Of a DNA stretch of 64,000 bases, positions 1 to 31,504 are shown one piece after another (the stretch's first letter is position 1; each line of letters begins with the position of its first letter). The position numbers and the translations under genes were made by a program. The notes under the pieces were generated by a model, which did not search any database, was not told where the DNA came from, and saw only the letters and a list, made by a program, of their open reading frames with translations. The stretch comes from Daucus carota subsp. sativus (Eukaryota; Streptophyta; Magnoliopsida; Apiales; Apiaceae). The DNA is taken from NCBI RefSeq assembly GCF_001625215.2, contig NC_030383.2:57526949-57590948 (forward strand), given 5' to 3'.

Positions 1-2690
1 TTCTCAAAGCTCCATCGATTATTTTCTGTAGCACTGCTGGAGTCTGTTATATTCAGCCTTTTTACTGCAACAGTCTCACCATTAAACAGTTTGGCCTTGT
101 ACACAGTTCCAAATCCTCCTCTTCCAATGCAGTACCTTTCACTGAAATCTTCAGTGGCTCTCACGATATCACTAAATGTAAACCTCCCTTCTCTTTCCCA
201 AATCAGTGACTTAAAGTTCTTGGAATTGATCGCCTCTAAATCATGTTTCTTGATTTTTTTTTGACATATTAAACATCCAACAATAACAATAGTCCCAGAA
301 ACTAAGAGACTGACCCCTGCAACACTGCCACCAATTATTGATTTTTTACTGGACTTCGATGATTTGAAAGACAAATCCGGACATGGGGACAATCCTTTAG
401 CATCTCCACACAGAAGAGGGTTTCCATTAAAAACTTTTTCCACTGTGTGTGGGAACAAGGGTATAGGGCCAGACAAGTTATTATAAGATAAATCAATAGT
501 GTCCAAACTAATCATGCCCGTAGATAGGGAGGAGGAAATTTTACCTGAGAGCTGATTGTGTGAAAGATTTAAATTTTGCAAAACCTTCAGTTTTGCCAAA
601 TTAGAAGGAATGGTGCCTGAAAGTGAATTGCTACTCAGGTCCAAAGTAATTTGCAACTGAACCAAATTGCCAAGTTCAGATGGTATTACTTCTGAAAAAC
701 TGTTCTGGCTTAAGTTCAGGCTCAATAAGCTCTCACAATTCCCAAGATCTTTCGGTATGCTTCCCTTCAATTTGTTTGAAGACAAATCAAAATAGTTGAG
801 CTTTGATAGTTTGCCTAAACTCTTAGGGATGTCTCCAGTCAAATGATTACGGCTCAAGTTGAATTTCAACAACTGGATCAAATTTCCCATTTCATTCGGA
901 ATCTGACCTGTCAACTCATTCGATTCCAGCTGCAAAATTTGCAAATTCTTTAAGTTTCCAAGCTCAGCTGGGATGGCACCTGAAATTTTGTTCTGTGACA
1001 TTTCCATGTTTGCAAGACTTTCATACTTTCCCCACTTGGAGGATAGTTCACCCGTAAATTTATTGCCGCTCAGAGATATGAAAACAAGATATGGATGAAA
1101 ACCAAATGCTTCAGAAACATTTCCAGAGAACTGGTTTTTATCAAGACGGACTCTACTCAATGTGGAGCACTTTCTCAGGCATGATGGCAGGACCCCTGAA
1201 AAATTGTTTGCAGTTACTGTAATCCATGAAAGGGTTAAACTACTGCACAATCCTTCTGGCAATTTTCCGGAGAATCTGTTGAACGAAAAATTAACAGTGG
1301 ACAGATTGAGATTCTTTTTTCCAAAGTCCTTCGGAAGGCTACCAGAAAACCTGTTATTGTGAAGATGAATTAAGTTCAAGTGACTTAATTCCGCAATTGT
1401 ATCAGGCAGCTCTCCATTAAATTGACAACTTTGGAGATCAAGAGTTTCCAGCTGTGTCAAGTTTCCAATCTCAGGTGGAATAGTTCCACTAAGATTATTG
1501 GAGAACAACTGTAAGAGCACCAATTTGGTGAGCTTTCCTATTGTTGCTGGAATTGAACCTTCTAGATGGTTTCCTGACAAGTCTAATTCCAGAAGCTCTT
1601 TCAAATTTCCAATCTCTCTGGGAATTCTTCCTCTGAATTTATTACTATACAGATACAGGTATGTGAGATTTGTCAACATACCAATTTCAGGAGGAATATT
1701 ACCCGTAAAGGTATTATTTTTCATGTATAGTTCTGTTAACTGAGACCAGTTGCTGATGAAATGTGGTGACAGCTCACCAGAGAGAAAATTGTCTGAAACG
1801 TCGAGTTGGGAAATTTGTGTAAGATTTGAAAACGACAAAGGCAAAGGCCCGGTAAGAGAATTCACAGCCAGAGCCAAGAAGGTGAGCTTGGTGCACAAGC
1901 CAAGCTCAGGAGGAATACTAGAATTCAAATAATTTTCTTTGAGATCAAGAGTTTGAAGCTGCCTAAGTTGACCTATTGAAGAAGGAATTGGCCCTGTGAA
2001 GTTATTCCTTCCTAGGCGAAGTTCTTCTAGCTTGAAAAGCTTGGAAATATTTCTTGGCAGTAAGCCTGTCAACTCATTCCTCGACAAATCAAGAAAAATT
2101 AAGTTCCTTAAATTTATCACATAAAATGGAAATCCGGAAGCAAGCTCATTGTAGTATAAGCTGAGGTATGTCAAAATTGGCATGTCCGAAAACAGAGACC
2201 AGTCTGGACTAGCCAAGTAATTTGAGCCCAAGTCCAAATGTTGCAGCTTCTGAAGATGACTAATTTGGTAAGGAATGGTACCATTTATATAATTGTCGTA
2301 AAAGCTCAAGTACTGAAGCTCTGCCAGGTCTCCAATCCCTCCCGGTATAACGTCTGACAGCAGGTTGTGACTCATGTCCAAAGAACTGAGGTTCGGAAAT
2401 GAACCAAAACTGAAGTGAGCAAGTGTTCCATTAAGGTCTTGACCAGAAACATTGAGCTTCGAAACTGTTCCTGCAGAATTGCAGGTAATGCCAGTCCAGT
2501 TACAAAGGTTTTCGAGACTGCTTGAGGACCAGGAACTGAGAGAAGCAGATGGTAATAAACTGCTCTTCCATTTGACAAGAGCTTCTGCCTCAGTTCTTAG
2601 TGATGGTGTTATTTTTTGTGGAGCTACTGAGATGATCAAAAGAACATGCAGCAGTAGAAAAACAAGTGGATTATGAAGTAAGCTGGCCAT
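1..2690 (-). CDS. MIK2-like LRR receptor kinase, copy A (3' end beyond window)
   Basis: This is a plasma-membrane LRR receptor kinase. The frame opens at the ATG at 2688-2690 and runs without a stop to the window edge, about 896 codons. It has a hydrophobic signal peptide, an LRRNT cap with the paired cysteines of the form CNWTGITC, a long run of LRRs, a second cysteine pair (LCG...CP), a transmembrane segment and the start of the kinase domain including the glycine-rich loop and VAVKRLN. The edge cuts it in kinase subdomain III. It is almost identical to the copy at 19758-23467 (offset 20783) except in the signal peptide, where it is two residues longer and clearly diverged. At the codon where that copy has a stop, this one reads CAA (Gln). 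The family resembles MDIS1-interacting receptor-like kinase 2; the ligand is unknown. It is probably functional, but its last exon is not visible. Confidence 0.9.
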   Translation of the reverse strand, partial: MASLLHNPLVFLLLHVLLIISVAPQKITPSLRTEAEALVKWKSSLLPSASLSSWSSSSLENLCNWTGITCNSAGTVSKLNVSGQDLNGTLAHFSFGSFPNLSSLDMSHNLLSDVIPGGIGDLAELQYLSFYDNYINGTIPYQISHLQKLQHLDLGSNYLASPDWSLFSDMPILTYLSLYYNELASGFPFYVINLRNLIFLDLSRNELTGLLPRNISKLFKLEELRLGRNNFTGPIPSSIGQLRQLQTLDLKENYLNSSIPPELGLCTKLTFLALAVNSLTGPLPLSFSNLTQISQLDVSDNFLSGELSPHFISNWSQLTELYMKNNTFTGNIPPEIGMLTNLTYLYLYSNKFRGRIPREIGNLKELLELDLSGNHLEGSIPATIGKLTKLVLLQLFSNNLSGTIPPEIGNLTQLETLDLQSCQFNGELPDTIAELSHLNLIHLHNNRFSGSLPKDFGKKNLNLSTVNFSFNRFSGKLPEGLCSSLTLSWITVTANNFSGVLPSCLRKCSTLSRVRLDKNQFSGNVSEAFGFHPYLVFISLSGNKFTGELSSKWGKYESLANMEMSQNKISGAIPAELGNLKNLQILQLESNELTGQIPNEMGNLIQLLKFNLSRNHLTGDIPKSLGKLSKLNYFDLSSNKLKGSIPKDLGNCESLLSLNLSQNSFSEVIPSELGNLVQLQITLDLSSNSLSGTIPSNLAKLKVLQNLNLSHNQLSGKISSSLSTGMISLDTIDLSYNNLSGPIPLFPHTVEKVFNGNPLLCGDAKGLSPCPDLSFKSSKSSKKSIIGGSVAGVSLLVSGTIVIVGCLICQKKIKKHDLEAINSKNFKSLIWEREGRFTFSDIVRATEDFSERYCIGRGGFGTVYKAKLFNGETVAVKRLNITDSSSATENNRWSFE

Positions 2691-6475: not shown

Positions 6476-6484
6476 TATAAATAG
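6476..6484 (+). promoter_or_regulatory. TATA box of secreted peptide gene 1
   Basis: TATAAATAG lies 54 bases upstream of the ATG in a block of about 100 bases that is conserved before all three peptide genes. Conservation of the promoter block suggests that each copy was duplicated with its own promoter. Confidence 0.65.
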
Positions 6485-6537
6485 ACGCATAAATCAATGG
6501 ATGTAATAAAGATATATATCAGCTAGTACCGGTATAC

Positions 6538-7503
6538 ATGGCTTCATTCTCTAGGGCAAGATTTATTTATTTTATCACAGTGGCTGTTATTATACTGCAG
6601 CTCGTTTTCTCACAAGCAGGTTTGTCTCTTGTTATTATATTTTTTTCCTCCAAAAATATTTATTTTTACTTTCTAAATATTTTTTAAAAATTGTATATGT
6701 ATTTTAAGTGTATTAAAAAATTGTTCTACTTCATTTTATATTAGTATCTTGAATATAAAAGTTTGTATCCATTTTCTTATTAAAGATAAAATTTTAAAAG
6801 TAATATTAAAATATTCTTTTTGATATATGTTTGCTAATAAGAAGATAAATAAAATTAATTAATAATACATCGTGATCTTATCAACTTCCAATAACTATAA
6901 TACAAATATTAAAAAATATATAATATGCAACAAGAAAATATTGCGATATATATACAGACTACTAATCAAATACAAATCAAAAGGAATTGCATTCATTTTC
7001 TTCTATTTTTATAATTTAATAAACAAACACCCTGGAGCTTCTTGTTTACATAAGTAGGGCTTGTTGTTTAGATAAGCATATCCTTAAAAAAACTTATATA
7101 CAATATTATATTTTCATTGTATCGTATGACTTCTTTTTGTAGTCATAAATCATTCATTAAGACAATTTGAGAATTAATCCAATTGAATTCTAATAAAAGA
7201 CATGATATGTTTTGTTAAATATAAAATCTAATAATGTTTGTTTGCAATCGAATCATGTTAAATATATAGTGATTAAATTTGTGTTGTATATAGTGGGATA
7301 AATGAAAATGTAGGTAATATAACTAATTATAATTGGTTTCGAACATTTCAAACTTATAAAATACATTAATAATAATGATTTAATCCTTGTTTTTATCTGC
7401 AGCTGATCAGATAGATAAAGATAAAGATGACAGACATCCTCCTTCTCGACCCGGGCGTAGCCGTGGAGGAGGAAGAGCTCCCCATGCAGCTAATAATGAT
7501 TAA
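6538..7503 (+). CDS. Small secreted peptide precursor 1 (two exons, 60 aa)
   Basis: Exon 1 is 6538-6619 and exon 2 is 7403-7503, joined by a GT-AG phase-1 intron. The product is 60 aa. Exon 1 encodes a signal peptide starting MASFSRARFIYF with a hydrophobic core and a likely cleavage after SQA. Exon 2 encodes an acidic/lysine linker and a C-terminal segment PPSRPGRSRGGGRAPHAAN, rich in Pro, Arg and Gly, ending in ND. There are no cysteines in the mature part, which is typical of post-translationally modified signalling peptides. The tail partly matches the CEP/PIP layout (P-x-x-P-G-x-S-x-G-x-G). The TATA box, intron position, signal peptide and 3' UTR (AATAAA near 7698) are conserved in three copies. 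I do not recognise a named family. A receptor kinase lies upstream on the other strand and a broken NPF transporter downstream. Confidence 0.75.
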
Positions 7504-8449: not shown

Positions 8450-9206
8450 ATGACAATGGAGAAAAAGTAGTTGAAGAGAAAGGGAAGAAGAGTACACTGA
8501 AGATGGAACAGTTGATCTCAAGGGTAATCCTGTGCTGAGATAGAAAACAGCGAGATGGAGAGCTACTTATTTCATTATAGGTATGTCAAAACTGTTAACT
8601 GACCAAATCTTCTGAGAAAACCTCGAGTTGTTGGGAGTATGTCTTAACCAATAATCATATTATATCTCACTGAGTTCTCATATCATGTTAAATTAAAATC
8701 TCAAGATGTTGAGAGGAAGGTTTATCAGAATCATATTATATTTTAATAAAAAACATGTTGCTTATTCACTTATCAGTGAAAAAAATTATATGATTTTATT
8801 TTTTATGTTCATCCAAAAATACTACTTACATGGACGTATGTGGTGAAAATATGTGAAAAAAGTCAAACATGTTATAAAATGATTACAAAGTATTTAAAAG
8901 TATAGTGAAAAGTTAAGTTTTAGCTTGCTACGACAAAAGATAAATGTTTTATCACTATGTTTAATTTCGATAACGATTTGTAGCATATGAAGCATTTGAG
9001 AGGATGGCGTTTTATGGAATCTCGACAAATCTGGTGTTGTATCTATCAAAGAAGCTGCATGAAGGAACTGTAAAATCTTGAAACAATGTCACCAACTGGG
9101 TTGGCACCGTCTGGCTTACCCCCATTCTGGGTGCCTACATAGCCGATGCTCATCTCGGCCGGTACTGGACTTTCATCATTTCAGCCATCATCTATCTCGG
9201 GGTATT
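8450..9206 (+). pseudogene. NPF5-like transporter pseudogene, exons 1-2 only
   Basis: Exon 1 (8450 to about 8581) and exon 2 (8984-9201) match the intact gene at 28626. Exon 1 has a one-base insertion giving an early TAG and a second TAG in the conserved VLRS region. Exon 2 has a TGA where the intact gene encodes the SSNN stretch. Similarity to the NPF gene stops just after the exon 2 donor, and exons 3 and 4 are absent. The copy cannot make a transporter. Confidence 0.85.
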
Positions 9207-10302: not shown

Positions 10303-10814
10303 TTACGCAAACACGAGGGAGTTAGAGTTCCCCCGCTAAAACAAAAACTTATATGAATTCAGAGTTCAATGTACTGTACATGAATGTGATTCATGTTTGT
10401 TTTGGATTTGGTCACAGAAATAGCGTACTTTTGACAATAAGATTATTATGCAGAAAAAACATGCATTATGCAGGAACCTTGAACCTCTTTTAAATTTATT
10501 CACAATTTCCGGCCCGAAGAATCGGGGAAGAATTTAGGATATATGTTCTCATTATAATTTATAGTTTCATCATATTCTTTCTATGATTAAAGTGATGAAT
10601 GATACTCTTCGGTCCCATTCAAAAAGTAAGAACAATGATGGGACATTCGACATATATAAAATGAGTATACATAGTGAAAAAAAATTGTGGAGTTAGTTAA
10701 ATTTTATAAATTTATAAAATTGTACTATAAGTAAATTTGAATTGAAAAGTATCTAGTGTGATTGGTTGAATTTTAAATTATAAATTTTACTATATATACA
10801 GTAAGTTTTCAAAT

Positions 10815-11060
10815 CATGGTTTACAACATCCTAGCTTGGAGGATAGATACAAATGGAACATCATTTCGACTGAGCCAATTAATTACTCAAGTGTTGGTTA
10901 AAATATATTTAATATGTATTTTTTTCTCGTGCCATATGGATTGAGTTTACTTATTTTTTGTTGTATTGATGTTAACTGTTTGAAATAATAAAGAGCAAGG
11001 ATTAAAGTTGTCACTGTATCATATCGATCCATTAGGTTTTATACTTCCCTAAGATCATAT
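10815..11060 (+). pseudogene. 3'-UTR relic of a fourth peptide gene
   Basis: This stretch matches the 3' UTRs after the three peptide genes, from the ATCATGGTTTACAA segment through AATAAAGAGCAAGG. No exon 1 or exon 2 sequence precedes it. It marks a module copy whose peptide coding part has been deleted. Confidence 0.7.
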
Positions 11061-12297
11061 TGGCTGATTAATAAAATTTGTATATTATAGAAATTGTATT
11101 GATATAATTATACCGGTGACCGAAGCATAAATATGCACCCCCTGCAAAAAAAGAGTCTCTCTATTAATAGACAAGAGTTTGGTAACGGATTGATAAAATT
11201 TATAGATATTATTTATAAAAAAATTCTGACATGTTATGTAAACTTTTAGTTGGGAGTTTTGTAGAGCCGAAAATAATAGGACCTTTTGGCTAAAATTAAA
11301 AAAAAAAAATGACTTCATTTTTAAAATAAAAAAATGAATCTGAAAAGTAAGTCAAAACATGTAAGTGATTAAAGTATTTCGAGAAAAAGTGAAAAGACCC
11401 GAGACAAAAGATAGAGTTCTCATTTTATAATTATTTTTTTTGACTTTAACCGAAAACGGGTAAAAAAAATTATAAACCGACTTCTAATTAATAAAAGAAG
11501 CGGGAAGCATGGACAACCAAACATGCAGGGTGTTATTAGGAGAAATAAAAAATTAATCCACCGTGACAAGACGCAGGCAGACATTATAGTTGTTTTCTTC
11601 ACCATATTTTCTAAGTCGATTCTTAGTTTATAACTTATAAGTTATGATATGAGTTGGTCGGCTATCCCCGTTCAAGGATATTCGACTTGCATGCATAAGC
11701 CATGTCAACATATTATACTCCACAAGTTGTTTTTAAGTTCCGTTGCATGGATTTTGAGATTCTGTCAAATTTTTATTCAAGAAATAAAATTTTAAAAATA
11801 TATTATCAAACTATACTTTCTCAAAATAAGTGTGAGAAAATAATGTAAAGAATCTTTTGGACCGAGGAAGTGTTTATTATCATTTTGAATTCTAGTGAAA
11901 ATTTATAAAAGTATTGATTGTTAAAAAAAAAATAACATGAAAAATATACGATATAACACATGTCATATATAAGTCTTGTTGTGGCAGAGATTTATTATAC
12001 TTAAACAATTGATGATAACTAATATATAAGCAGCTGCATCTGTAAATTACTAGAAAAAACTAAGAAGTGGCGACCATACTCATGAATAAATTGGATTCAT
12101 GTTTTTGTTCTTTTACCAACATGAATATCTAAGAGGGTCAGATTTAGATATAAGAACTCACTTCTTTGTGAAATTTTAATAAATAATACAGTTTAACAAT
12201 GCCACAAGATTCAGTAATTATCCTGCATTTCGGCGAAAAGTATCTGCATTGAGGAACTGGTTTCTTAATCTGGATGGTCAATAGAGTTTAAGGTGAA

Positions 12298-12420
12298 ATG
12301 ACGATGGAAAAAGTTGAAGAGAATGGCAAGAAGAGTGGGGATGAGTACACTAAAGATGGAACAGTTGATCTCAAGGGTAATCCTGTGTTGAGGTTGGAAA
12401 CCGGGAGATGGAGAACTAAG
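12298..12420 (+). pseudogene. NPF exon 1 fragment, fused to antisense receptor sequence
   Basis: The start MTMEKVEENGKK and the conserved DGTVDLKGNPVLR stretch match exon 1 of the NPF gene at 28626, in an open frame. At about 12417-12424, just after GRWRT, the sequence switches to the antisense strand of the receptor kinase first exon and a stop follows within a few codons. Exons 2-4 are missing. Confidence 0.8.
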
Positions 12421-12678
12421 GTTCGGAAATGAACTGAAACTGATGTGAGCAAGTGTTCCACATTAAGGTCCTGACCAGAAAACATTGAGCTTCGAAACTG
12501 TTCCTGCAGGATTGAAGGTAATGCCAGTCCAGTTACAAAGGTTTTCGAGATGGCTTGAGGACCAAGAACTGAGAGAAGCAGATGGTAATAAACTGCTCTT
12601 CCATTTGACAAGAGCTTCTGCCTCAGTTTTTGGTGATGATGTTAGAATTTGTGGAACTACTGAGATGAAAAGAACATG
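12421..12678 (-). pseudogene. MIK2-like receptor kinase 5' fragment, frameshifted
   Basis: This matches the part of the receptor that encodes the LRRNT cap and first LRR. Extra bases near 12460 and 12480 break the reading frame. Similarity ends near 12678, before the signal peptide start. It directly abuts the NPF exon 1 fragment in tail-to-tail orientation. Confidence 0.85.
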
Positions 12679-13789
12679 AAGGTTGGGGCGGGATCCAAAT
12701 CCTATTCTAATCCATCCAAATATAGATCCAAATTCATCCATCCTTATAATATTTATATACTTTGATTTTAAATATTTTAAAAAATGATTAACTAATTTCA
12801 TCATTAATTATAATAATATAATTAACAAATAGACAAAGAAAAAATATTACAAAATAATTCGAAAAAGTTAAAACGGTACATAAAAATAAATTAAAAATAT
12901 TAAAATATTACTTTAAAATATTAATTCTCAGAATTAGTTTATTTTTCTTACAAATGCTCAATTAGTGCATTTCGAAGTTCAAGATGAAAAAATATTTGTT
13001 TTTGATTTTTCTGTAGTGATTGATAAATTGTTGAAATTTTATGTATTTTGAAATTTTATTTATTTTGAAATTTTAATTTATAATTAATCGTTGTTTTATT
13101 TATATTCCAATCTTAATTAATCTATTTTTAATAATATTAACAAAATCATCAAATAATAAAAGTAATAATATTTTAATGTTATAAAATTTTGGATAGTAGT
13201 GATCCAAATTTGGACCAGTACTATTGACTGATCCAAATTTGGATCACTTTTTAGTCCACGATTGGAGTAGTTTGGGCACTGCTCCAAATTTAAATTTTTT
13301 TTAGTGTACCTAATGTTAGGCCACAAATATAAATTATTCTTTGTGAAAATAACATGACACTAGCTTGACTCTACAGTCAGTCTTCATATAGGAACTAACA
13401 GAGCAATTTCTTGCGTCTACTTTTCAAATCAAAAATCAACAAAAATTCTGCTTTATTGCTCTTTGTATCATTACAAACATTGATTTATTAAACACTCGTT
13501 CAGAAACTTCTGGCATTACAAAAGCAACGATTTCTCGCTTCAAATTTCCAAACATGGAAAAATCACACACCGTTCTCGAATTTCGACCACTTTTCATTAT
13601 CACCTAGAAAAATTAATAGAAGTTCCCGGCCATTTTTTTAAACTTTGATATTCTTCCTGATTTTTTACACTTTCAAACTTTACCAAATATAAAAATATTA
13701 TATAGTATAAAAATCAAATGCTCTACTACTTTCCACTATATTATTTTATACATTAAACATCAATCAAAATATAGTTCAGTAAATTAGTA

Positions 13790-15561: not shown

Positions 15562-16256
15562 ATGGCTTCATTCTCTTGGGCAAGATTTATTTATTTTATT
15601 ATAATGATCGTTATTATACTGCAGTTCGTTTTAAGCCATGCAGTTGCAGGTTTGTCTCCTATCATTGTATTTTTTTTATCTTAAAACTTTTCCTTAATCA
15701 CTTTAATATTTTATAAATTTCTCTTGCATGAGTTTAAAGTGTATTAAAAATACTTTTACTTAATTTTATATTAATTATTAGATAAAAATTTGTATTTGTT
15801 TATTACTAAAAGATAACACTTTAAAATATAACATTAAAATATTAAATTTTTTACATCTTTGTGAAATATGAAAAGATAAATACAATTAATTAATAAGACA
15901 TCGCGATCTTATTAACTTCCAATAACTATACTGCAAATATGTAAAAGTATATAATGATCAATAACTCAGTGGTTAAGAGCTTATCCTTTGTCGTCCCAAG
16001 TCCTGGGTTCCACCTCGCTCACCCCGAAAATTTCCTAGGCTATAGATCATATTTGTCAAAAAAAAAAAAAAAATCCGAACATTTCAGCCTATAAACATAG
16101 AGATTGCATGATAATTGTTTAATCCAATTTTGAACGTTTTTATCTACAGGGAAAGCTGCGAGAGATCCAGGTGACAGACATCCTCCTTCTCGACCCGGGC
16201 CTGGCCCTGGACCAAGAGATCATGACGGTGCACCTATAATTAATAATGGCCCATAA
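15562..16256 (+). CDS. Small secreted peptide precursor 2 (two exons, 64 aa)
   Basis: Exon 1 is 15562-15649 and exon 2 is 16150-16256, with a phase-1 GT-AG intron. The product is 64 aa. The signal peptide starts MASFSWARFIYF and is four bases plus one codon longer at its end (SHAVA) than in the other copies. The mature part keeps the invariant RHPPSRPG core, then diverges to GPGPGPRDHDGAP and a different tail ending NNGP. The intron contains a tRNA-derived SINE with a poly-A tail. The 3' UTR is the conserved family type. A truncated receptor fragment follows on the opposite strand. The reading frame is intact despite strong change in the last 25 residues, so this may be a diverged paralog rather than a dead copy. 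Confidence 0.72.
15958..16072 (+). mobile_element. tRNA-derived SINE in the peptide 2 intron
   Basis: An A-box-like ACTCAGTGGTTAAGAGC and a B-box-like CTGGGTTCCACCTC are followed by a run of about 16 A. Peptide introns 1 and 3 lack it. It shares the CTTATCCTTTGTCGTCCCA stretch with the SINE at 3494, so both are probably one family. Confidence 0.65.
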
Positions 16257-17289: not shown

Positions 17290-17859
17290 TTAATATGTGT
17301 CTATATCTTTATATGTAGTGCTCCTCCTACGTAGTTTATGAGAGTTTGAAATTGGCATGTCCGAAAACAGAGACCAGTCTGGACTAGCCAAATACTTTGA
17401 CCCCAAGTCCAAATGTTGCAGCTTCTGAAGATGACTAATTTGGTAAGGAATGGTACCATTTATATAATTGTCGTAAAAGCTCAAGTACTGAAGCTCTGCC
17501 AGGTCTCCAATCCCTCCCGGTATAACATCTGACAGCAAGTTGTGACTCATGTCCAAAGCACTGAGGTTCGGAAATGAACTGAAACTGAAGTGAGCAAGTG
17601 TTCCATTAAGGTCTTGACCAGAAACATTGAGCTTCGAAACTGTTCCTGCAGAATTGCAGGTAATGCCAGTCCAGTTACAAAGGTTTTCGAGATGGCTTGA
17701 GGACCAAGAACTGAGGGAAGCAGCTGGTAATAAACTGCTCTTCCATTTGACAAGTGCTTCTGCCTCAGTTCTTGGTGATGATGTTAGAATTTGTGGAACT
17801 ACTGAGATGAAAAGAACACTCAGCAGTGAAAAAACTAGTGGACTGTGAAGTAAGGCCAT
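17290..17859 (-). pseudogene. Truncated MIK2-like receptor, signal peptide plus first LRRs
   Basis: The frame starts at the same ATG as the full receptor and encodes a signal peptide, the LRRNT cap (CNWTGITC) and about three LRRs. Similarity stops after the DWSLFSDMP stretch near 17353. The frame then continues for 20 unrelated residues to a stop, for a total of 189 aa. There is no transmembrane segment or kinase. The frame is intact and the promoter flank is retained, although a Stowaway element separates the TATA box from the ATG. If expressed it would give a small secreted LRR protein; it is most simply a 5' gene fragment. Confidence 0.75.
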
Positions 17860-17892
17860 TAGTGTTGGTTTATATTTGGTTGGAATCTAGTA

Positions 17893-18172: not shown

Positions 18173-18582
18173 TAAGATTTTCTGGGATTTATAGTAGTGT
18201 ACCTAATGTTAGGCCAAAAATGTAAATTATTTCTTTGTGGAAATAACATTACACTAGCTTGACTTTACAGTCAGTCGTCATAAGTGAAGTAACGGAGCAA
18301 TTTCTGAACATGTCAAAAATCAACGAAAATTCTGCTTTATAGATCTTTATGTCATTACAAACATTGATTTATTAAGCACCGTTCAGAAACTTCTGATGTT
18401 GACATTACAAAAGCAACGACTTCTCACTTTAGATTTTCTGAACATGGAAAAATCACTCACCGTTCCCGGATCTCGAATTTCGACCACTTTGTGTTATCAT
18501 GGGAAAATTAATAGAAAGTCCTGACCATTTCTTTAAACTTTTGATATCCCTTCCAAGTGATATATAGTTTCATAAATTAGTA

Positions 18583-19607: not shown

Positions 19608-19757
19608 TAACATCTATTATAAAATATAAAACAATATTTTGATACATGTTACTGGATCAAAAACCTATATATAGTGAGTACAAATGAAAAGAGAAATTGT
19701 GCATCACACTCTGTTATAGCCTTATTTTTTTTCTATCCCAAAGCTTAATCAACACCT

Positions 19758-22700
19758 CTAAGCCTTATCATGCAGCTGAACACTTAGTGCTCCGCAAGTC
19801 TGAGTCCTTGTCAGTTGTTGCGCCACAAAACGCATAGTAGGTCGTGACCCTGGTGCATAAAGTGTGCAAGCTAGCAATGCATTAAGAACCACTTTCACTT
19901 CCTCTGCTATTTTGTCTTTTGGAGGTGGAAGCCGGTTGTCAAGTGTTATATCCTTCATGATCAAGTCCTGATCAGTGGCCAAAGTCGTCGAAAGGAGCTC
20001 CGCAGGGTGTCTTCCCATCATTACCTCCAATCCCACCACTCCGAAGCTATAAACATCTGATTTTGTTGTCATAAGCATACAAAAGGATAGTTCTACACAT
20101 GAAACAAAACATGCATGCATGTTATTACACCCAAATGTTTACATTTGGTCTGGGCACGAAAGTTAAGAAAATAAGTAAAGTAAGAAAAGTGAGGATAGTG
20201 GTGGGACCAGTTGATATTTAATAGTATATAGAAAGTATGTATAATGGAGAAAAGTAGTGAGAGCAGTTGATTTTTATATTAGTAAAATTTGAGTATGTTT
20301 GATAAGTTTTGAAATTTATAGAATTGGATGGGACGTCTCAAAAGAAAAGCGTAAAGAAATGGTTGGTACTGACGTGAATTATAATGAGATGAAAAAGATG
20401 CACCTGGTGCCATGTAGCCATAAGACCCTGCAGGCTTAGTCAAGTTTGATGAGTCTGTACTCAACAATCTTGCAGTGCCAAAATCTGAGAGCCGCGGCTC
20501 CAATTCTGTCTCCAGCAAAATGTTATTCAGTGATACGTCCCTATGCACAATAGGTGGAGAGCAGTCATGATGCAGGTAAGAAAGTGCATGAGCCAATCCT
20601 ATAACAATTTTCACTCTTGTATCCCAATTTAAAGCAGAGGCAGCCTCAGGACTATACAATAACTTGCTCAAGCTACCTCTCTCGACAAATTCATATGCCA
20701 AGTAAAGGTAATTGTCTATGGAACAGAATCCATGGAGTTTGATAATATTGCGGTGCCTAACTTCTGTCAGTGCTTGAATTTCATTCTCAAAGCTCCATCG
20801 ATTATTTTCTGTAGCACTGCTGGAGTCTGTTATATTCAGCCTTTTTACTGCAACAGTCTCACCATTAAACAGTTTGGCCTTGTACACAGTTCCAAATCCT
20901 CCTCTTCCAATGCAGTACCTTTCACTGAAATCTTCAGTGGCTCTCACGATATCACTAAATGTAAACCTCCCTTCTCTTTCCCAAATCAGTGACTTAAAGT
21001 TCTTGGAATTGATCGCCTCTAAATCATGTTTCTTGATTTTTTTTTGACATATTAAACATCCAACAATAACAATAGTCCCAGAAACTAAGAGACTGACCCC
21101 TGCAACACTGCCACCAATTATTGATTTTTTACTGGACTTCGATGATTTGAAAGACAAATCCGGACATGGGGACAATCCTTTAGCATCTCCACACAGAAGA
21201 GGGTTTCCATTAAAAACTTTTTCCACTGTGTGTGGGAACAAGGGTATAGGGCCAGACAAGTTATTATAAGATAAATCAATAGTGTCCAAACTAATCATGC
21301 CCGTAGATAGGGAGGAGGAAATTTTACCTGAGAGCTGATTGTGTGAAAGATTTAAATTTTGCAAAACCTTCTGTTTTGCCAAATTAGAAGGAATGGTGCC
21401 TGAAAGTGAATTGCTACTCAGGTCCAAAGTAATTTGCAACTGAACCAAATTGCCAAGTTCAGATGGTATTACTTCTGAAAAACTGTTCTGGCTTAAGTTC
21501 AGGCTCAATAAGCTCTCACAATTCCCAAGATCTTTCGGTATGCTTCCCTTCAATTTGTTTGAAGACAAATCAAAATAGTTGAGCTTTGATAGTTTGCCTA
21601 AACTCTTAGGGATGTCTCCAGTCAAATGATTACGGCTCAAGTTGAATTTCAACAACTGGATCAAATTTCCCATTTCATTCGGAATCTGACCTGTCAACTC
21701 ATTCGATTCCAGCTGCAAAATTTGCAAATTCTTTAAGTTTCCAAGCTCAGCTGGGATGGCACCTGAAATTTTGTTCTGTGACATTTCCATGTTTGCAAGA
21801 CTTTCATACTTTCCCCACTTGGAGGAGAGTTCACCCGTAAATTTATTGCCGCTCAGAGATCTGAAAACAAGATATGGATGAAAACCAAATGCTTCAGAAA
21901 CATTTCCAGAGAACTGGTTTTTATCAAGACGGACTCTACTCAATGTGGAGCACTTTCTCAGGCATGATGGCAGGACCCCTGAAAAATTGTTTGCAGTTAC
22001 TGTAATCCACGAAAGGGTTAAACTACTGCACAATCCTTCTGGCAATTTTCCGGAGAATCTGTTGAACGAAAAATTAACAGTGGACAGATTGAGATTCTTT
22101 TTTCCAAAGTCCTTCGGAAGGCTACCAGAAAACCTGTTATTGTGAAGATGAATTAAGTTCAAGTGACTTAATTCCGCAATTGTATCAGGCAGCTCTCCAT
22201 TAAATTGACAACTTTAGAGATCAAGAGTTTCCAGCTGTGTCAAGTTTCCAATCTCAGGTGGAATAGTTCCACTAAGATTATTGGAGAACAACTGTAAGAG
22301 CACCAATTTGGTGAGCTTTCCTATTGTTGCTGGAATTGAACCTTCTAGATGGTTTCCTGACAAGTCTAATTCCAGAAGCTCTTTCAAATTTCCAATCTCT
22401 CTGGGAATTCTTCCTCTGAATTTATTACTATACAGATACAGGTATGTGAGATTTGTCAACATACCAATTTCAGGAGGAATATTACCCGTAAAGGTATTAT
22501 TTTTCATGTATAGTTCTGTTAACTGAGACCAGTTGCTGATGAAATGTGGTGACAGCTCACCAGAGAGAAAATTGTCTGATACGTCGAGTTGGGAAATTTG
22601 TGTAAGATTTGAAAACGACAAAGGCAAAGGCCCGGTAAGAGAATTCACAGCCAGAGCCAAGAAGGTGAGCTTGGTGCACAAGCCAAGCTCAGGAGGAATA

Positions 22701-23467
22701 CTAGAGTTCAGATAATTTTCTTTGAGATCAAGAATTTGAAGCTGCCTAAGTTGACCTATTGAAGAAGGAATTGGCCCTGTGAAGTTATTCCTTCCTAGGC
22801 GAAGTTCTTCTAACTTGAAAAGCTTGGAAATATTTCTTGGCAGTAAGCCTGTCAACTCATTCCTCGACAAATCAAGAAAAATTAAGTTCCTTAAATTTAT
22901 CACATAAAATGGAAATCCGGAAGCAAGCTCATTGTAGTATAAACTGAGGTATGTCAAAATTGGCATGTCCGAAAACAGAGACCAGTCTGGACTAGCCAAG
23001 TAGTTTGAGCCCAAGTCCAAATGTTGCAGCTTCTGAAGATGGCTAATTTGGTAAGGAATTGTACCATTTATATAATTGTCGTAAAAGCTCAAGTACTGAA
23101 GCTCTGCCAGGTCTCCAATCCCTCCCGGTATAACGTCTGACAGCAGGTTGTGACTCATGTCCAAAGAACTGAGGTTCGGAAATGAACCAAAACTGAAGTG
23201 AGCAAGTGTTCCATTAAGGTCTTGACCAGAAACATTGAGCTTCGAAACTGTTCCTGCAGAATTGCAGGTAATGCCAGTCCAGTTACAGAGGTTTTCGAGA
23301 CTGCTTGAGGACCAGGAACTGAGAGAAGCAGATGGTAATAAACTGCTCTTCCATTTGACAAGTGCTTCTGCCTCAGTTCTTGGTGATGATGTTAGAATTT
23401 GTGGAACTACTGAGATGAAAAGAACACTCAGCAGTAAAAAAACTAGTGGACTGTGAAGTAGGGCCAT
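19758..23467 (-). pseudogene. MIK2-like LRR receptor kinase, copy C, one nonsense codon
   Basis: Exon 1 is 23467-20404 and exon 2 is 20092-19758, joined at phase 1 so that MAP continues as MAPELSF. The total is 1133 codons, the full length for the family. Features: signal peptide (1-25), LRRNT cysteines at 61 and 68, about 24 LRRs, a transmembrane segment near 783-806, glycine loop IGRGGFGTVYKA near 853, Lys875 in VAVK, HRD at 975-977, DFG at 995-997 and the APE glutamate at 1022. All catalytic motifs are present. The only break is TAA at codon 418 (22214-22216), where copy A has CAA. The rest of the frame is undamaged, so the stop is recent or an allele. Unless read through, it would yield a secreted 417-residue LRR fragment. 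The kinase intron contains a decayed Stowaway element. Confidence 0.92.
20133..20392. mobile_element. Decayed Stowaway-type MITE in the kinase intron
   Basis: The stretch AGTTTTGAAATTTATAGAAT followed by TGGGACGTCTCAAAAG is the reverse complement of the left half of the element at 17893. The ends are degenerate and no TA pair can be assigned. Confidence 0.45.
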
Positions 23468-23511
23468 TAGTGTTGGTTTATATTTGGTTGGAATCTAGTA
23501 AGATTTTCTGG

Positions 23512-23520
23512 GATTTATAG
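23512..23520 (-). promoter_or_regulatory. TATA box of receptor kinase copy C
   Basis: CTATAAATC on the minus strand lies 45 bases upstream of the ATG, as in copy A. Confidence 0.6.
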
Positions 23521-25319
23521 TAGTGTGCCTAATGTTAGGCCACAAATATAAACTATTTCTTTGTGAGAAGAACATTACACTAGCTTGACTCTACAGTCAG
23601 TCTTCATAAGGGAACTAACAGAGCAATTTCTTGTGTCTACTTTTTCTTATCAATAATCAACAAAAACTCTGCTTTATAGCTCTTTCTATCATCACAAAGA
23701 TTTATTTATTAAGCACTCTTCAGAAACTTCTGATATTGGTTTCTGGCTTCAGATTTTCTAAACATGGAAAAATCACACACCATTCTGAATCTCGAATTTC
23801 TACCACTTTTTGTTAACATTGAGGAAAATTAGTACTAGATGTCACAACTATTTCTTTACACTTTCGAAACTTATCAAATATAGTTAAATTTTATAACATA
23901 AAAATCAAATTTATACATTAATTATCAATAGGTAGCTGGCACGTATTTTAACGCTAGAATATAGCTTTATAGATTATTTTATTATTTTTCTTCAGAGTAA
24001 ATATTTATTGTTTAAATTTTTTATTCAACAAGAAAAAAATAAAATAAATTATACAACTATATTTTATAGAAGCCTGCGTAAAAAAACGGTGTATAAATGA
24101 GTGGGAGGAGGAAGTATATTTTAGTGACACCAGATTTCTATATTTTTACATTCCACAGAATTGTTTAACCCTAATTTTGGGGATCAAGTATCTGCTTCCT
24201 GGTTTCCAGTTATAACATATTTATGTATCTGCCCAAACTTATATGGATTCAGAGTTCAATGTACTATATATGATGTGATTCATGTTGTGGTTTGGATTTG
24301 GTCACAGCTTACTTTTGACAATAAGCTTATTATGTAGAAAAAAGCATGCATTCTGCAGGAACCTTAAAGCTTTTGAAATTTACACAATTTCCGGCAGGAA
24401 GAATATATCAAGGATTAATTTAGGTGATATGTTCTCATTATAGTTTCTTCATACTCTTTCTATTATATTTTTATAACATATATTCACCATTTTTCTGCCG
24501 TAAGGATTGGGGATAGAATTTAAGTGATTAAAAAATAATATATATAATCTTATTAGAATTGGTATTTAAGTACTTTTGTTCCAGATAATAGATGCATCTG
24601 AACAAATTGCATTGCATTTTTGTCTATGTTAACTTCCGACGAATTCCGTCGTAAGTTATTGGACACAAAAAAATTTGGAAAATTGAAATTACCTCCAAAA
24701 TATATTGAGAAAAGTTGAATTTACCGCCTGCTAACTTAAGAAGTATTCCGTCGTAAGTTTTTGGACACAAATTTTTTTGGAGAATTGATATTACTGCCAA
24801 AATATTTTTGGGGAAAAATTAGAATTTAGCGCCCTGCTAACTTACGACAGATTTTACTTTCCGTCATCAGTTCAATTTTAGTTCCTAGAAATTATTATTA
24901 AAATAATATACCTAGGACATAAACTTTTTAGTCGTAAGCACTTACGACGGATTTTTTATTTCATCGTAAGTTCGGTGTCTGCGCCAAGATTTTATTATTA
25001 AAATAATATACGTACGGCGGAATACATAGTCTTTCGTAAATTTATCTAAATTTACGACGGGAATATCAGTTCCGTAGTAAATTTTTCCGTCGTAAGTTTT
25101 CCGTCGTAAATGACCCATATTGTTGCAGTGTAGTTTAAATTCTGATAATATAGTTGTTTTTTTTTGCCATCCTGATAATATAATTTAAATGAGTTAGATT
25201 TGGATTATATCATGCTCATATACAAATGATCATTTATTTGAATGATCTAGATTTGAAATAATTAAAAATATGATTTCAATAAGACTCATCAACAAAAAGT
25301 TTCTATGTTCTTTTATTTT
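23521..25319. other. Intergenic: receptor 5' flank and spacer
   Basis: No gene is seen. The sequence follows the same order as 2744-4150, ending with the TTCTATGTTCTTTTATTTT stretch where a receptor fragment is inserted. A CACTA-like element interrupts it. Confidence 0.55.
24610..25130. mobile_element. CACTA-like non-autonomous element
   Basis: The right end reads CACTGCAACAATATGGGTCA on the minus strand, and the left end starts CATTGCA, a degenerate match. Sub-terminal repeats of the type TTACGACGGA occur about ten times in both orientations. The paralogous spacer near 3960 lacks it. No transposase is present in the 521 bases. Confidence 0.6.
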
Positions 25320-25491
25320 TGAGATTGCTCGAGGAGCAAGAACTGAGAGAATCAGATGGTAATGAATTGTTCTTCAATTTGACAAGAGCTTCTGCCTCAG
25401 TTCTTGGTGATGATGTTAGAATTTGTGGAACTACTGAGATGAAAAGAACATGCAGCAGTAGAAAAACAAGTGGACTGTGAAGTAAGGCCAT
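25320..25491 (-). pseudogene. MIK2-like receptor kinase 5' fragment
   Basis: The first 57 or so codons match the receptor signal peptide and the start of the LRRNT region (RTEAEALVKLKNN), then the match ends at 25320. Trp and Cys residues of the cap are lost. Its own copy of the 5' flank follows to about 25.8 kb. It is inserted in the spacer between a full receptor and peptide gene 3. Confidence 0.85.
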
Positions 25492-26530
25492 TAGTATTGG
25501 TTAATATATGGTTGGAATCTAGTAAGATTTTCTGGGATTTATAGTAGTGTAGCTAATATTGTTAGGCCACCAAATATAAATTATTTCTTTGTGAAAATAA
25601 CATTAGTTACCCTAGCTTCACTCTACTGTCTGTCTGTCTTCATAAGTGAACGGAGCAATTCTTTGTGTCTACTTTGTGGCACATGCTGCTTTATAGCTCT
25701 TTGTATTATTTCACACATTGATTTGTTAAGCACTCAACAAACTTCTGATGTCAACATTACAAAAGCAAATTTTTTTCTCGCTTCAGATTTTCTGGACATG
25801 GAAAAATCACACACCATTCCTCAATCTCGAATTTCCACAGAGGAAAATTAGTACTCAGTCGGCCGTCCCGTCCTTGCGTTGTATGCGCTTAGGACGGAGG
25901 GCTAATGTTTTTATAGTTTAATAAATCACTTTTTTTCTTTTGAATAAAAATTAAAATGATAAATTTTTATTCGAAAACAGGAAATTTTAAAAATATATTA
26001 TAGAACTATATTTTATAGAAGGTTTAGATTACGAAAACAGTATAAATGGGTGTTTGACGCGTAAATTTTATCCATTTTCTAATTAAATAAACATTTTTAA
26101 ATAATAAAACCGGGTTATAACCGACCGGCTGGCAATCAATTTTGTATACAGAAATAAAACGACAACATTTTTGTCTGAGAAATTATTAAAAATTTGAGAA
26201 AATATACACAAAGACTTAACCGACGGATAGAGGTGTCGGTTATAATATAGACACGTCGGCACTAAAAACTGACCATACTCTTGTCGGTCGGTTAAAATAT
26301 TTATATAGATGCCTTGTCAGCAAGGCAGAACGACATCGTTCTTGGTAAAACCGACCGATTACGTATGGTCAGTTTTATCCCGACACTTTTTTGTTGCCGG
26401 TCGGTTTTATCCTGTTTTTTTAGTGGTTGGTACGTATGAAGTATATTTAGTGACATGAGATTTACTCGTATTACCAGGTACGTTCCATTCAAGTTCGCGT
26501 GAAGATGGAAAAAGCTTATATACAATTGTT
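25492..26530. other. Second receptor 5' flank and MITE-rich spacer
   Basis: No gene is seen. The first 350 bases repeat the receptor 5' flank. A decayed Stowaway-like stretch lies near 25.86-26.06 kb, followed by the palindromic element listed separately and the start of the peptide promoter block at about 26.47 kb. Confidence 0.55.
26107..26420. mobile_element. Palindromic MITE with ACCGACCG ends
   Basis: The left stretch ATAACCGACCGGC and the right stretch GCCGGTCGGTTTTAT form inverted ends, with several internal copies of ACCGAC in both orientations. The superfamily is not clear and the borders are approximate. Confidence 0.45.
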
Positions 26531-26539
26531 TATAAATAG
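26531..26539 (+). promoter_or_regulatory. TATA box of secreted peptide gene 3
   Basis: TATAAATAG lies 87 bases upstream of the ATG. The distance is greater than in copies 1 and 2 because about 35 extra bases (an A-run and a duplicated GATATCAGCTT) lie in the leader. Confidence 0.65.
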
Positions 26540-26625
26540 ACGCATAAATCAATGGATCTAATCAAGATATCAGCTTTTGTCAAAAAAAAATAATAATAAT
26601 AAGATATCAGCTTATACCGGTATAC

Positions 26626-27505
26626 ATGGCTTCATTCTCTAGGGCAAGATTTATCTATTTTATCATAGTGGCCGTTATTATACTGCAGCTCGTTTTAACT
26701 CAAGCAGGTTTGTTTCTTATTATTATATTTTTTTGCCCAAAAATATTTATTTTCTCTTTCTAAATATTTTTAAAATTTTTTATATGTATTCAAGTGTATT
26801 AAAAAATACTTTTACTTCATTTTATATTAGTAATGTGAATATATAAAAGTCTGTATCCGTTTTCTTATATATTAAATGGTAGAATTTTAAAAAATAATAT
26901 TAAAATATTATTTTAATATATGTTTGCGAAATATGAGAAGATAAATAAAATTAATTAATGAGACATGGTGATCTTATCAACTTCTAATAAATATAATACA
27001 AACATTAAAAAAATACATAATTGCACCCACTTTCTTTCATATTTATAATTGAATAAACTCAAACACTCTTGAGCTTGTTATTTAGATAAGCGTATCCTTA
27101 AAAAATTTACATATAATATTTTATTTTCATGCGAGTTTTAATTTTATGACTTTTTTTTAGTCATAAGACTATTTAAGAATTAAATCAATTGAATTCTAAT
27201 AAAAGACACGGTATATTTTGTTGAATATAAAATCTGATGTTTATTTGCACCCGAATCATGTTAAATATATTGTGATTAAATTTGTATGTAGTTGGGATAA
27301 ATGAAAATGTAGATAATGAAACAAATTATAATGAGATTTGGAACATTTCAAATCTATAAAACACAGAGGGTGCATAATAATAATGATTTAATCCTCGTTT
27401 TTATCTGCAGCTGAGTTGGATAAAGATGACAAAAATCCTCCTTCTCGACCCCGGCGTGGCCGTGGAGGAGGAAGAGCTCCCCATGCAGCTAATTATGGCT
27501 CATAA
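26626..27505 (+). CDS. Small secreted peptide precursor 3 (two exons, 58 aa)
   Basis: Exon 1 is 26626-26707 and exon 2 is 27411-27505, phase-1 GT-AG intron, 58 aa. The signal peptide starts MASFSRARFIYF and ends LTQA. The mature part is AELDKDDKNPPSRP followed by RRGRGGGRAPHAANYGS. It shares PPSRP and GGGRAPHAAN with copy 1 but differs in the linker and the last residues. The promoter block, intron position and 3' UTR are those of the family. An intact NPF transporter starts 1.1 kb downstream and a MIK2-like receptor lies 3.2 kb upstream on the other strand, the same order as at 1-9200. Confidence 0.75.
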
Positions 27506-28625
27506 ATCATGCATGGTTTACAAGATCCTCGAAGCATATATAGAAATGGATTTATAATACAAAATGGACCATCATTTCGACTGATCCATTAGTTACTAAT
27601 TAATTAAGTGTTGGTTAAAATATTTTAAATATTGCATTCTCCCTTCCCATTTGTATTGAGTTTACTTACTTTTGGTTGTATTGATATTAACGGTTGAAAT
27701 AATAAAGAGCAAGGAGTACAATTGTTACTGTATTGAACATAAATTAGGTTTTATACTTCTCTAAGGTCACATTGATTGATTAATAAATTTCTGTTTTTAT
27801 GTATTTCATATAACTTATAAATTGTATTGATATAATACCAGTGATTGAAGCATGAAGGTGTACTCTTTGTAAAAAAATGTTAGATATTTTAAAAAATAAT
27901 TTTATAAAATTTGATATCTATATTTATAGATAAGAGTTTTTTACTGGTGAAATTTATACATACTATCTCTAAAATTTATTTTTGACATATCACCTGAACT
28001 TTAAGATACAAATTTTGTAGGGTCGGACAGGGCGTATCTAGCACACAAATGTTAAGGGGCATGAAGCAATTTTTTGAAAAACACCTGTATATTTTTAAAT
28101 TTTTTGGGGGCACTTTCATAATTTTGCAAAATTTAGAATGGTGAAAAAATATAAAAAAATAAATTAGGGGAACAAGTGTCCCAGTGCCTCTTCCTAGATC
28201 GCCCTTAAGGTGGGAGATGATCTTACTGAAGTAAGGGGTTAATCCCCGATCACAACATGCAGGCAAACAATTATAGTTGTTTTCTTCACCATATATATAA
28301 AACATGTTATATAATAAGCCTTGTTGTCGGAGATATTCTTTATACTTAAACAATTGATGATAACTAATATATAAGCAGCTGCATCTGTACATTACTAGAA
28401 AAAAACTAAGTGGCGACTATACTAATGAATAAATTGGATACATGTTTTTGTTCTTTTACCAACATGAATATCTATAAGAACTCACTTCATTGTGAAACTA
28501 TTATAAATACAGTTCAACAATGCTGCAAGATTCAGTTATTATCCTGCATTTCGGCAGAAAGTATCTGCGTTATATATAAGGAACTGATTTCTTGATCTGG
28601 ATGATTAATAAAGTTTAAGGTGAAA
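27506..28625 (+). other. Peptide 3 3' UTR and NPF 5' flank
   Basis: The peptide 3' UTR extends to about 27.75 kb. From 28.2 kb the sequence is the NPF 5' flank shared with 8.04-8.45 and 11.95-12.3 kb. No further gene is seen. Confidence 0.6.
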
Positions 28626-31504
28626 ATGACGATGGAAAAAGTAGTTGAAGAGAATGGAAAGAAGAGTGGGGAGGAGTACACAGAAGATGGAACAGTTGAT
28701 CTCAAGGGTAATCCGGTGCTGAGATCGAATACAGGGAGATGGAGAGCTACTTATTTCATTATAGGTATGTCAAAATTGTCATTGACCGATTCTTTCAAAA
28801 TCTCGAGTTGTTGGGAGGAAGGTCTACTAAAATCATATTATATCTCATGAATCTCGAAGTCTGATATCATGTTAAGTAATTAATTCTCCTAAAATCTCGA
28901 GATGTTGGGAGAAGGATTTATCAGAATCATATTATATTTTAACAAAAAAATGTGATTGACTTATTTCAGGACTCGTGAAAATAGGTGAAAAAAGTCAAAC
29001 GTGTTATAAAATAATCAGAGAGAGCATTTAGTAGTAGAGTGAAAAGTTAAGTTTTAGCTTGCTACGACAGAGGATAAATGTTTTACCATTATGTTTAATT
29101 TCGATAATGATTTGTAGCGTATGAAGCATTTGAGAGGATGGCGTTTTATGGAATCTCGACAAATCTGGTGTTGTATCTAACAAAGAAGCTGCATGAAGGA
29201 ACTGTGAAATCTTCAAATAATGTCACCAACTGGGTTGGCACTGTCTGGCTTACTCCCATTCTGGGTGCCTACATAGCCGATGCTCATCTCGGCCGATATT
29301 GGACTTTCATCATTTCAGCCATCATCTATCTCGGGGTATGAAAGCATATACAGCTCGAAATTATCGTACAACTCTTCAAAGATTGATTTTTTGAATTCGA
29401 GATTGCAGAATAGAATAAAATGAATCAATATTAGAGCTGGATTCCACACATACTTGTGTTACCCGAAAAAAAATGTCCGACAACTTAATCCTAAGTTTTT
29501 GACGGATGCTACACTATCATTCAACGAAAAAATACCTAACTATTTAGTTTTTCTCATTCAGCATTTTTTCGTACAATACTATTATTTATCCCGTGAGTTT
29601 CTTTGCGTAACTTTTTAGCACGTATTTTGAGCCTCCTCTAAAGTATAATTGCATAATAATTTTTTTATTTTTTTCCTCAAATAAAAGTTCAACATTTAAA
29701 TTTTATTAAAAAAATTTTATGAAACTATATTTTATTAAATCTCAAAATACAACCTGCCGGAAAGGAGAAAGCAGTATATATATATGACCTTGACTATGTT
29801 TCATGTTTTCTATTGCTGTGCATTGGCTTAGCATTTGTTATGTAACAGGGCATGTGCTTGCTAACTCTAGTAGTTTCACTAAAATCTCTCCGGCCACCGT
29901 CTTGCGGCGGCGATATAAAAGATGTGAACTGTAACAAACACGCCTCACCATTTCAAGTGGGTATTTTCTACTGTGCACTGTACATAATTGCACTGGGGAC
30001 CGGGGGGACCAAGCCCAATATCTCAACTATGGGTGCAGACCAGTTTGATGAATTTGAGCCCAAAGAAAAAGCCCAAAAGATGTCATTCTTCAATTGGTGG
30101 GTCTTTAGTGTCTTCTTTGGCACACTCTTTGCCAGCACCTTCTTGGTCTACATCCAAGATCATGCAGGCTGGGGACTTGGATATGGGCTTCCCACAATTG
30201 GGCTCTTTTTGTCAATATTGGTGTTTTTAGTGGGCTCACCTTATTATAGACACAAGCCTGCCTCAGGAAGCCCAATTACTAAGATGGCTAGAGTCCTTGT
30301 GGCCACTGTTAGAAAATGGAATGTGGCTGGCCCAAGTGATCCAAAAGAACTTCATGAGTTGAATCTTGATGAATATTCAAAACCTGGAAAATATAGAATT
30401 GACCACTCTGCTTCATTAAGGTCAGATTAATCACTAATTGTGTTGTTTATGGTCTTAATGTTCATTCTTTTGTGTCCATAAGTCATGGTAGTTTAAATTC
30501 TATCTTTTTTAGTTGAAGAAAAAATGAGCATAGAGCGGTTTGGAAGGACTTTTTTTAGATGTCACTGATACGGGAGTCTTGTGCACTGGGTACGACCTCT
30601 CACTCATATATTTTTTTCCCCCAGGATACTAGATAAAGCGGCCGTTGCGGATGGAGTGAGCCCTCCTTGGATGCTATGCACAGTGACTGAAGTTGAAGAA
30701 ACAAAACAAATGGTGAAAATGGTGCCAATTTTGTTGTGTTCATTCTTACCTAGCACCCTGTTAGCTCAGGGACAAACTCTCTTCATCAAGCAAGGTGCCA
30801 CTCTTGTTAGAAGCATTGGCCCTCATTTCGACATTCCTCCAGCATCTCTGATAGCCTTTGTCACAATCTTCATGCTGATCAGTGTCGCGATCTATGATAA
30901 GTTCCTGGTTCCTGCACTACGAAGATACACCAAAAATCCAAGAGGGATCACAATGCTGCAGAGAATGGGAATTGGCCTAGTGATACAAGTCATAATCATG
31001 ATCATTGCTTCCATTAGTGAACGAAAACGCTTAAGTGTGATTAAAGAACATGGTATCACGGAGAAAACTCAGATTGTTCCGTTGAGCATTTTCATATTAC
31101 TTCCTCAATATGGCCTAATGGGGGTGGCTGAAACATTCTGGGAAGTTGGGAGGCTGGAATTCTTCTATGATCAAGCTCCGAAAAGCATGAAAAGCTTCGG
31201 GACAGCCTATTACACAACTAGCTTGAGTATGGGGTATTTTCTCAGCAGTTTTATACTAACAACTGTGGCTAATTTCACTAAAAGGCATGGCCACAAGGGG
31301 TGGATTCTGGACAACTTGAACGTCTCTCGCTTAGACTATTTCTACGCGTTTTATGCTGTTCTCAGCTTTATTAACCTCTTGTTCTTCCTGCTCGCTGCAA
31401 AATACTTTGTTTACAACAAAGAAGACGAATATGCCACATTAGAGCTGGAAAACCTCAAGGATTCTTCTGATAAGAATGCTCTCTTGAAAGATGAAACAAT
31501 GTAG
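28626..31504 (+). CDS. NRT1/PTR family transporter (NPF5.2-like), copy 1
   Basis: Four exons: 28626-28764, 29118-29335, 29849-30420 and 30625-31504, giving 602 aa, the usual family length. This is a proton-coupled MFS carrier with about 12 membrane segments. The ExxER motif (EAFER, residues 49-53), needed for proton coupling in this family, spans the first splice junction. The POT signature GTGGTKPNIS is present in exon 3, and a charged central loop separates the two six-helix halves. The family carries nitrate, di/tripeptides or other small solutes; the closest named relative I recall is Arabidopsis PTR3/NPF5.2, a wound- and pathogen-responsive peptide carrier. The substrate here is inferred only. 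Start: the ATG at 28626 matches the start in the paralog. It lies next to a paralog with identical exon lengths for exons 1-3. Confidence 0.92.

Follow-up and report, generated by a model that had tools for sequence, protein, structure and literature searches.

Genes that lie together and have been copied together do not necessarily work together, and the question raised by this stretch of carrot DNA is whether its neighbouring genes are also partners. The stretch analysed, referred to here as the window, comprises 64,000 nucleotides of Daucus carota subsp. sativus (C3:57526949-57590948; 441-Mb genome, 11 contigs). Negative coordinates denote positions to the left of the window. The original prediction described a receptor kinase on the minus strand, a small secreted peptide on the plus strand and an NPF transporter on the plus strand, found in this order at 1-9.2 kb and again at 19.8-31.5 kb, and suggested that the three form a functional unit. 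Self-BLAST of the window reveals these repeats: the receptor kinase interval 1-3133 (-) matches 20784-23908, the peptide interval 6422-8012 (+) matches 26472-28027 and the NPF interval 8007-9205 (+) matches 28210-29339. Partial versions had been proposed at 10.8-12.7 and 13.3-17.9 kb. Both were recovered, the former as segments 10811-11152, 11951-12418 and 12412-12681, the latter as 13294-13651, 15412-16559 and 17349-17892. The spacers between repeated genes were copied along with them, giving shorter matches of approximately 77-88% identity. Features are located in table 1.

Table 1. Features of the home locus and of the second cluster. Plain numbers are window coordinates; the prefix C3 marks contig coordinates.
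Feature	Position	Strand	Description	Basis
Peptide F'	-43967	+	intact	
Peptide J	-42663	+	intact	
Peptide K	-39526	-	intact	
Decayed peptide copy	-22.4 kb		exon 2 equals that of D, exon 1 broken	
Peptide G	-18165	+	intact	
Peptide F	-16529	+	intact	
Peptide I	-14554		decayed, start lost	
Peptide H	-13818	+	intact	
Peptide D	-8657	-	intact	
Peptide E	-7649		decayed, start lost	
RK1	1..2690	-	MIK2-like LRR receptor kinase, N-terminal part of exon 1, ATG 2690	open frame and relatives
Peptide A exon 1	6538..6619	+	signal-peptide-like	two-exon model
Peptide A exon 2	7403..7503	+	PPSRPGRSRGGGRAPH...	two-exon model
NPF copy 1	8450..9204	+	relic, exons 1-2 with stops	
Peptide-unit relic	10811..11152	+	3' part and downstream flank	self-BLAST
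Third NPF copy	12298..12417	+	exon 1 relic only	
Receptor kinase fragment	12412..12681	-	5' fragment	self-BLAST
Peptide C exon 1	15562..15649	+		two-exon model
Peptide C exon 2	16150..16256	+	HPPSRPGPGPG...	two-exon model
Receptor kinase fragment	17349..17892	-	5' fragment	self-BLAST
RK2	19641..23467	-	receptor kinase copy, ATG 23467	in-frame stop; kinase exon 2 near 19.8-20.1 kb
Receptor kinase fragment	25316..25524	-	5' fragment	self-BLAST
Peptide B exon 1	26626..26707	+		two-exon model
Peptide B exon 2	27411..27505	+	PPSRPRRGRGGGRAPH...	two-exon model
NPF-B	28626..31504	+	four exons, apparently intact	PF00854 on exons 3 and 4
NPF-C	32934..35241	+	tandem neighbour, not accompanied by a receptor or peptide copy of its own; looks intact	
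Peptide G'	C3:62694376	-	complete model; 88-96% identity to G per exon match	
Peptide M	C3:62704276	-	intact	added by local scan
Peptide N	C3:62750344	+	complete model	
Peptide O	C3:62756711	+	match only, E 0.25	

MIK2 is an immune receptor of Arabidopsis that perceives SCOOP peptides with a BAK1/SERK co-receptor. Database relatives of the carrot receptor RK1 are plant kinases, several of them named MDIS1-interacting receptor like kinase 2-like, with 34-57% identity among the best 120 listed. MIK2 chains are among its best PDB sequence matches, ranked below GSO1. A MIK2-like protein of Capsicum is 55% identical to RK1 over 1099 aligned columns, kinase included, and has several repeats that RK1 lacks. 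As relatives are so annotated across the LRRs, the membrane segment and the kinase, RK1 is classed by sequence similarity as MIK2-like, a group for which we take LRR-XIIb to be the subfamily label. Its frame is open and reaches -465; a kinase exon 2, plausible by translation, lies at about -1050 to -660. A frameshift in RK1 was considered and rejected, as the open frame merely leaves the window at its left edge. Exon 1 of RK2 contains a premature in-frame stop at 22214-22216.

A genome search with RK1 residues 1-337 gave at least 132 matches at E values up to 1e-20, with 119 of 1641 candidates scored. These include a receptor cluster, here called cluster 2, at C3:62.698-62.779 Mb with 59-76% identity in individual stretches, and further relatives at positions such as 12.08, 56.68 and 58.82 Mb. 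The relative at C3:12074120-12077774, some 45 Mb away, is close to RK1 (84-92% DNA identity) and has its frame in pieces. A large array of divergent MIK2-like LRR genes, approximately 40-55% identical to RK1, occupies C3:63.06-63.48 Mb. LRR proteins that join a MIK2-like N-terminal part to a receptor-like-protein C-terminal part are encoded in the window at 53389-55870 and 57292-60246, and again at 63170-~66080 and ~82.4-86.7 kb towards and within the right flank. A piece of the same kind, C3:62750906-62753180, is found in cluster 2, flanked by peptide N and a receptor-kinase fragment. No kinase was found within the frames inspected for these pieces. The right flank also carries direct copies of 4526 bp at 68047-72572 and 74439-78964 with 100% identity, which point either to a duplication that happened very recently or to one introduced by the assembly. 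A 290-bp repeat of about 92% identity, perhaps a small transposon, adjoins receptor fragments in both clusters (window 17891-18180 and 62493-62783; C3:62705041-62705329).

The small peptide genes form a family, for which no name was found; at least 13 of its members are intact two-exon genes. Scans of the home region covered 253.9 kb, the window included. Ten intact genes lie within 71 kb, from -44.0 to 27.5 kb, and most family copies are outside the window; three more (G', N and M) are found at the second locus, 5.1 Mb away. In 12 of the 13 models, exon 1 measures 70-88 nt and exon 2 from 95 to 215 nt; all 13 open models have the intron in phase 1 and share the same splice sites. The encoded precursors are 58-98 aa long. 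Exon 1 supplies signal-peptide-like starts such as MASSSLARFVYFIIVIMIIYQFALTHA, with a hydrophobic N-terminus that ends, as judged by eye, in an A-type site. Exon 2 is often Pro/Gly-rich at its end (H, DPPHSPRPGYGGKGH; D, NPPHSPWPGIGGKN; C, HPPSRPGPGPG; G, FKPRPSPNPIQDHGPSGRG). Elsewhere in the 253.9 kb, exon-1 queries returned nothing beyond short matches with E values of 0.14 and above. Pfam gave no families for seven of the 13 members (A, D, G, H and K at E up to 10; M and N up to 0.01), and a word-based protein database search found no relatives of peptides A and G. The latter absence is weak evidence, because the search needs shared words and no Apiaceae were noticed among the matches listed for the receptor.

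Cluster 2 was covered at 62.689-62.7088 and 62.7465-62.7564 Mb. Genome-wide queries with five home peptides matched 11 separate places away from the home cluster once overlaps were merged (A 0, K 1, D 3, G 10, F 0 per query). Three of these lie at 62.694-62.757 Mb, beside the second group of MIK2-like receptors; the other eight are matches only, at E 0.17-5.6, one of them with five stops. By our own arithmetic, uniform placement would put three of 11 places in cluster 2 with a probability of order 1e-9, a figure weakened by jointly duplicated blocks, which violate the assumption of uniform placement. Each of the four peptide places found in cluster 2 sits downstream of a same-strand receptor-kinase exon, at 2.0 kb (G'), 1.5 kb (N), 3.9 kb (M) and, for the match O, about 1.9 kb. 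Peptide M is not independent evidence of linkage, because it was found by a local scan inside the receptor region; as a genome query it matched only itself. The home cluster has no such fixed layout: RK1 and RK2 each have a divergently oriented peptide gene 3-4 kb upstream (A and B respectively), and the only copies 3' of RK1 on its strand are D and the decayed E. No convincing peptide was found near the lone receptor relatives at 12.08 and 56.68 Mb (12.069-12.0888 and 56.676-56.6859 Mb read), where the best match, at E 0.007, is interrupted by a stop. A transposase-bearing stretch, presumably TNP2/CACTA-like, occurs close to peptide genes in each cluster, and its two copies match at 99.4% identity over 2.7 kb (C3:62689000-62691698; -51810 to -54495).

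The joint presence of peptides and receptors in a second cluster is what a ligand-receptor locus would predict. Our main reading, to which we assign a probability of roughly 0.4, is that the locus is a birth-and-death cluster in which MIK2-like LRR receptor kinases are mixed with fast-evolving two-exon peptides that are perceived by their neighbours. Receptor and peptide genes interleave, and copies of unequal age stand intact or decayed beside one another. The following mechanism is proposed. (i) Exon 1 would provide a signal-peptide-like stretch. (ii) Exon 2 would encode a short pro-region and a Pro/Gly-rich C-terminal part to be released outside the cell. (iii) The peptide genes would be expressed and their products secreted and processed. 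(iv) By analogy with MIK2, neighbouring MIK2-like receptors may perceive the peptides together with a BAK1/SERK co-receptor. (v) Ligand and receptor copies would arise, diverge and die together. It is a slightly more tentative proposal that these genes, at least 13 in number, constitute an interleaved, lineage-specific phytocytokine-like family perceived by the adjoining MIK2-like receptors, a pairing that we infer. The peptides are reasonable candidate signals for those receptors.

The most serious alternative, which we rate a little below an even chance, is that the two gene types merely travelled together. An ancestral block would have held both, and the peptides would be genuine secreted products that act through unrelated receptors (PIP/CEP/IDA-like, for example) or in defence. 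G and G' share about 2 kb of flank extending to the 3' end of the neighbouring receptor, which indicates that blocks carrying both gene types moved together. Several peptides point away from the nearest receptor, and proline-rich ends such as HGPSGRG resemble the PSGP core, a feature that the accessible part of one recent study attributes to CLE, CTNIP, PIP, CEP and IDA peptides (PMC11331138). Against this stands the layout of cluster 2, where all four peptide places (three read, one match only) are 3' of a same-strand receptor exon and have several distinct receptors as neighbours, not a single block. Tandem duplication had been conceded from the outset as a plain cause of linkage, and this point holds: linkage inherited with a block still accounts for the pattern, with no need for binding.

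It is improbable, though less so than the readings discussed further below, that the peptide frames are non-functional, that is, non-coding or dead sequence within a decaying tandem array. Divergence of both exons combined is lower than that of the intron in all five pairs compared (exon/intron, %: A-B 10.3/15.4; A-C 25.6/35.6; B-C 21.5/36.0; G-G' 3.3/4.5; F-F' 2.1/10.0). The difference comes mostly from exon 1, which is strongly conserved. Exon 2 by itself diverges nearly as fast as the intron in four of the five pairs, F-F' being the exception; for A-B, A-C and B-C, exon 2 is no better conserved than the 3' flank. Values of dN/dS, calculated from few sites, are near 1 in several pairs (A-B 0.88, G-G' 0.48, F-F' 1.09, A-C 0.66, B-C 1.09, D-H 0.61). 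Loss of the start codon or breakage of exon 1 in E, I and the -22.4 kb copy also fits decay, as does the failure to find database relatives of A and G. The shared intron phase and splice sites of 13 open two-exon models speak against it, as does the conservation of exon 1. In a rough simulation of exons alone, with sites treated as independent, rates taken from introns and indel lengths <=30, the chance of an open frame surviving intron-like decay was 0.04, 0.017, 0.014, 0.06 and 0.17 for five non-independent pairs; a strict version gave 0.02 for A-B. All eight coding indels are multiples of three, a test that is partly circular because the models were chosen for open frames. Peptides A, B and C are complete, in contrast to the broken NPF copy 1 and RK2, though peptides are short targets for damage. 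Coding constraint on the family is weak and its loss is possible; on a fair reading the genes are coding, the signal peptide being under constraint and the second exon evolving fast.

The unit of receptor, peptide and NPF transporter first proposed is now very unlikely to be a functional module, although its gene order is repeated within the window. The three genes do not appear to have been copied in a single event. The receptor block -1143..3133 is 96.6% identical to 19641..23908, whereas identity is 76.5% for the peptide block and 81.1% for the NPF block. Receptor exon 1 gives dS 0.027 and dN 0.008 between RK1 and RK2; the corresponding values for peptides A and B are 0.14 and 0.12, with the 15.4% intron divergence noted above. 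Receptor and peptide divergence therefore differ approximately fivefold and allow no single duplication date, and a single co-duplication of all three genes was rejected. The closer similarity of the receptor copies reflects either homogenization by gene conversion or a later, second receptor duplication. PF00854 scores above the cut-off on exons 3 and 4 of NPF-B, and a genome search finds NPF-B and NPF-C, which places these genes in the NPF (POT/PTR2) family. NPF copy 1 is a pseudogene: exons 1 and 2 contain stops and exons 3-4 were not found, so it was rejected as a transporter gene. The third copy is reduced to one exon, NPF-C stands alone, and no NPF gene of cluster 2 is among the 117 genome matches listed (105 of 192 candidates scored). 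The NPF genes look like bystanders caught in some of the duplications, outside the peptide-receptor system. What survives of the proposed unit is its receptor and peptide part, which cluster 2, 5.1 Mb away, has strengthened.

Least credible of all is a Brassicales-type SCOOP-MIK2 pair outside that order: a MIK2-like receptor does stand beside tandem, divergent two-exon peptide genes, and SxS occurs in two of 13 second exons (SxS or SxT in six of 13), but at no shared place, RK1 has K, Y, D, S and Q where the SxS pocket of MIK2 has D246, N268, S292, H294 and H316 (none of five kept, in a hand-read alignment in which a slip of a whole repeat is possible), and PROSCOOPs and MIK2 are found in Brassicales only according to the accessible part of the source, so that identity with SCOOP-MIK2 was rejected on the pocket residues and the scarcity of SxS (Snoeck et al. 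2024, PMC11331138).

The preferred reading, of peptides perceived by neighbouring MIK2-like receptors, would have consequences beyond this locus. The MIK2 group includes a known peptide receptor, and MIK2-like receptor kinases occur widely in the plant matches listed, yet SCOOPs are confined to Brassicales in the available text of PMC11331138. If the reading is true, carrot would hold a second ligand system for the MIK2-like group after SCOOP-MIK2, and genomic neighbourhood would indicate which ligand an orphan receptor perceives. To our knowledge, SCOOPs are the only ligands established for this group. A peptide family beside receptors in two clusters yields a short list of candidate ligand-receptor pairs and offers neighbourhood as a route to finding ligands.

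Among titles and opening lines of abstracts on linked peptide-receptor clusters, MIK2-like receptors of Apiaceae and carrot phytocytokines, nothing concerned this locus. Several known systems invite comparison. Receptors of PIP, CEP, IDA, CTNIP and CLE peptides belong to other LRR subfamilies. Like those ligands, the carrot peptides derive from short precursors that are probably secreted, with Pro/Gly/Ser-rich C-terminal ends (as judged by eye). Some members end in GPSGRG or GGKGH, which recalls the ends of these peptides; a seven-member alignment contains no strict shared C-terminal core, the ends being Pro/Gly-rich. The S-locus SRK-SCR system of Brassicaceae self-incompatibility, as outlined in the material available, likewise keeps receptor kinase and secreted peptide genes tightly linked. 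It differs in receptor class and in its cysteine-rich SCR, whereas 11 of the 13 second exons here are without cysteine and the carrot cluster is multi-copy. In SCOOP/MIK2, the accessible part of the source reports that the first 14 PROSCOOPs occupy two loci and are similar in intron-exon structure, and describes no linkage to receptors, unlike the peptide genes here, which stand among receptors (PMC11331138). In the features that source does describe, the carrot locus resembles this Brassicales system: a MIK2-like receptor, tandem, short and divergent secreted precursors, a shared intron-exon plan and fast turnover.
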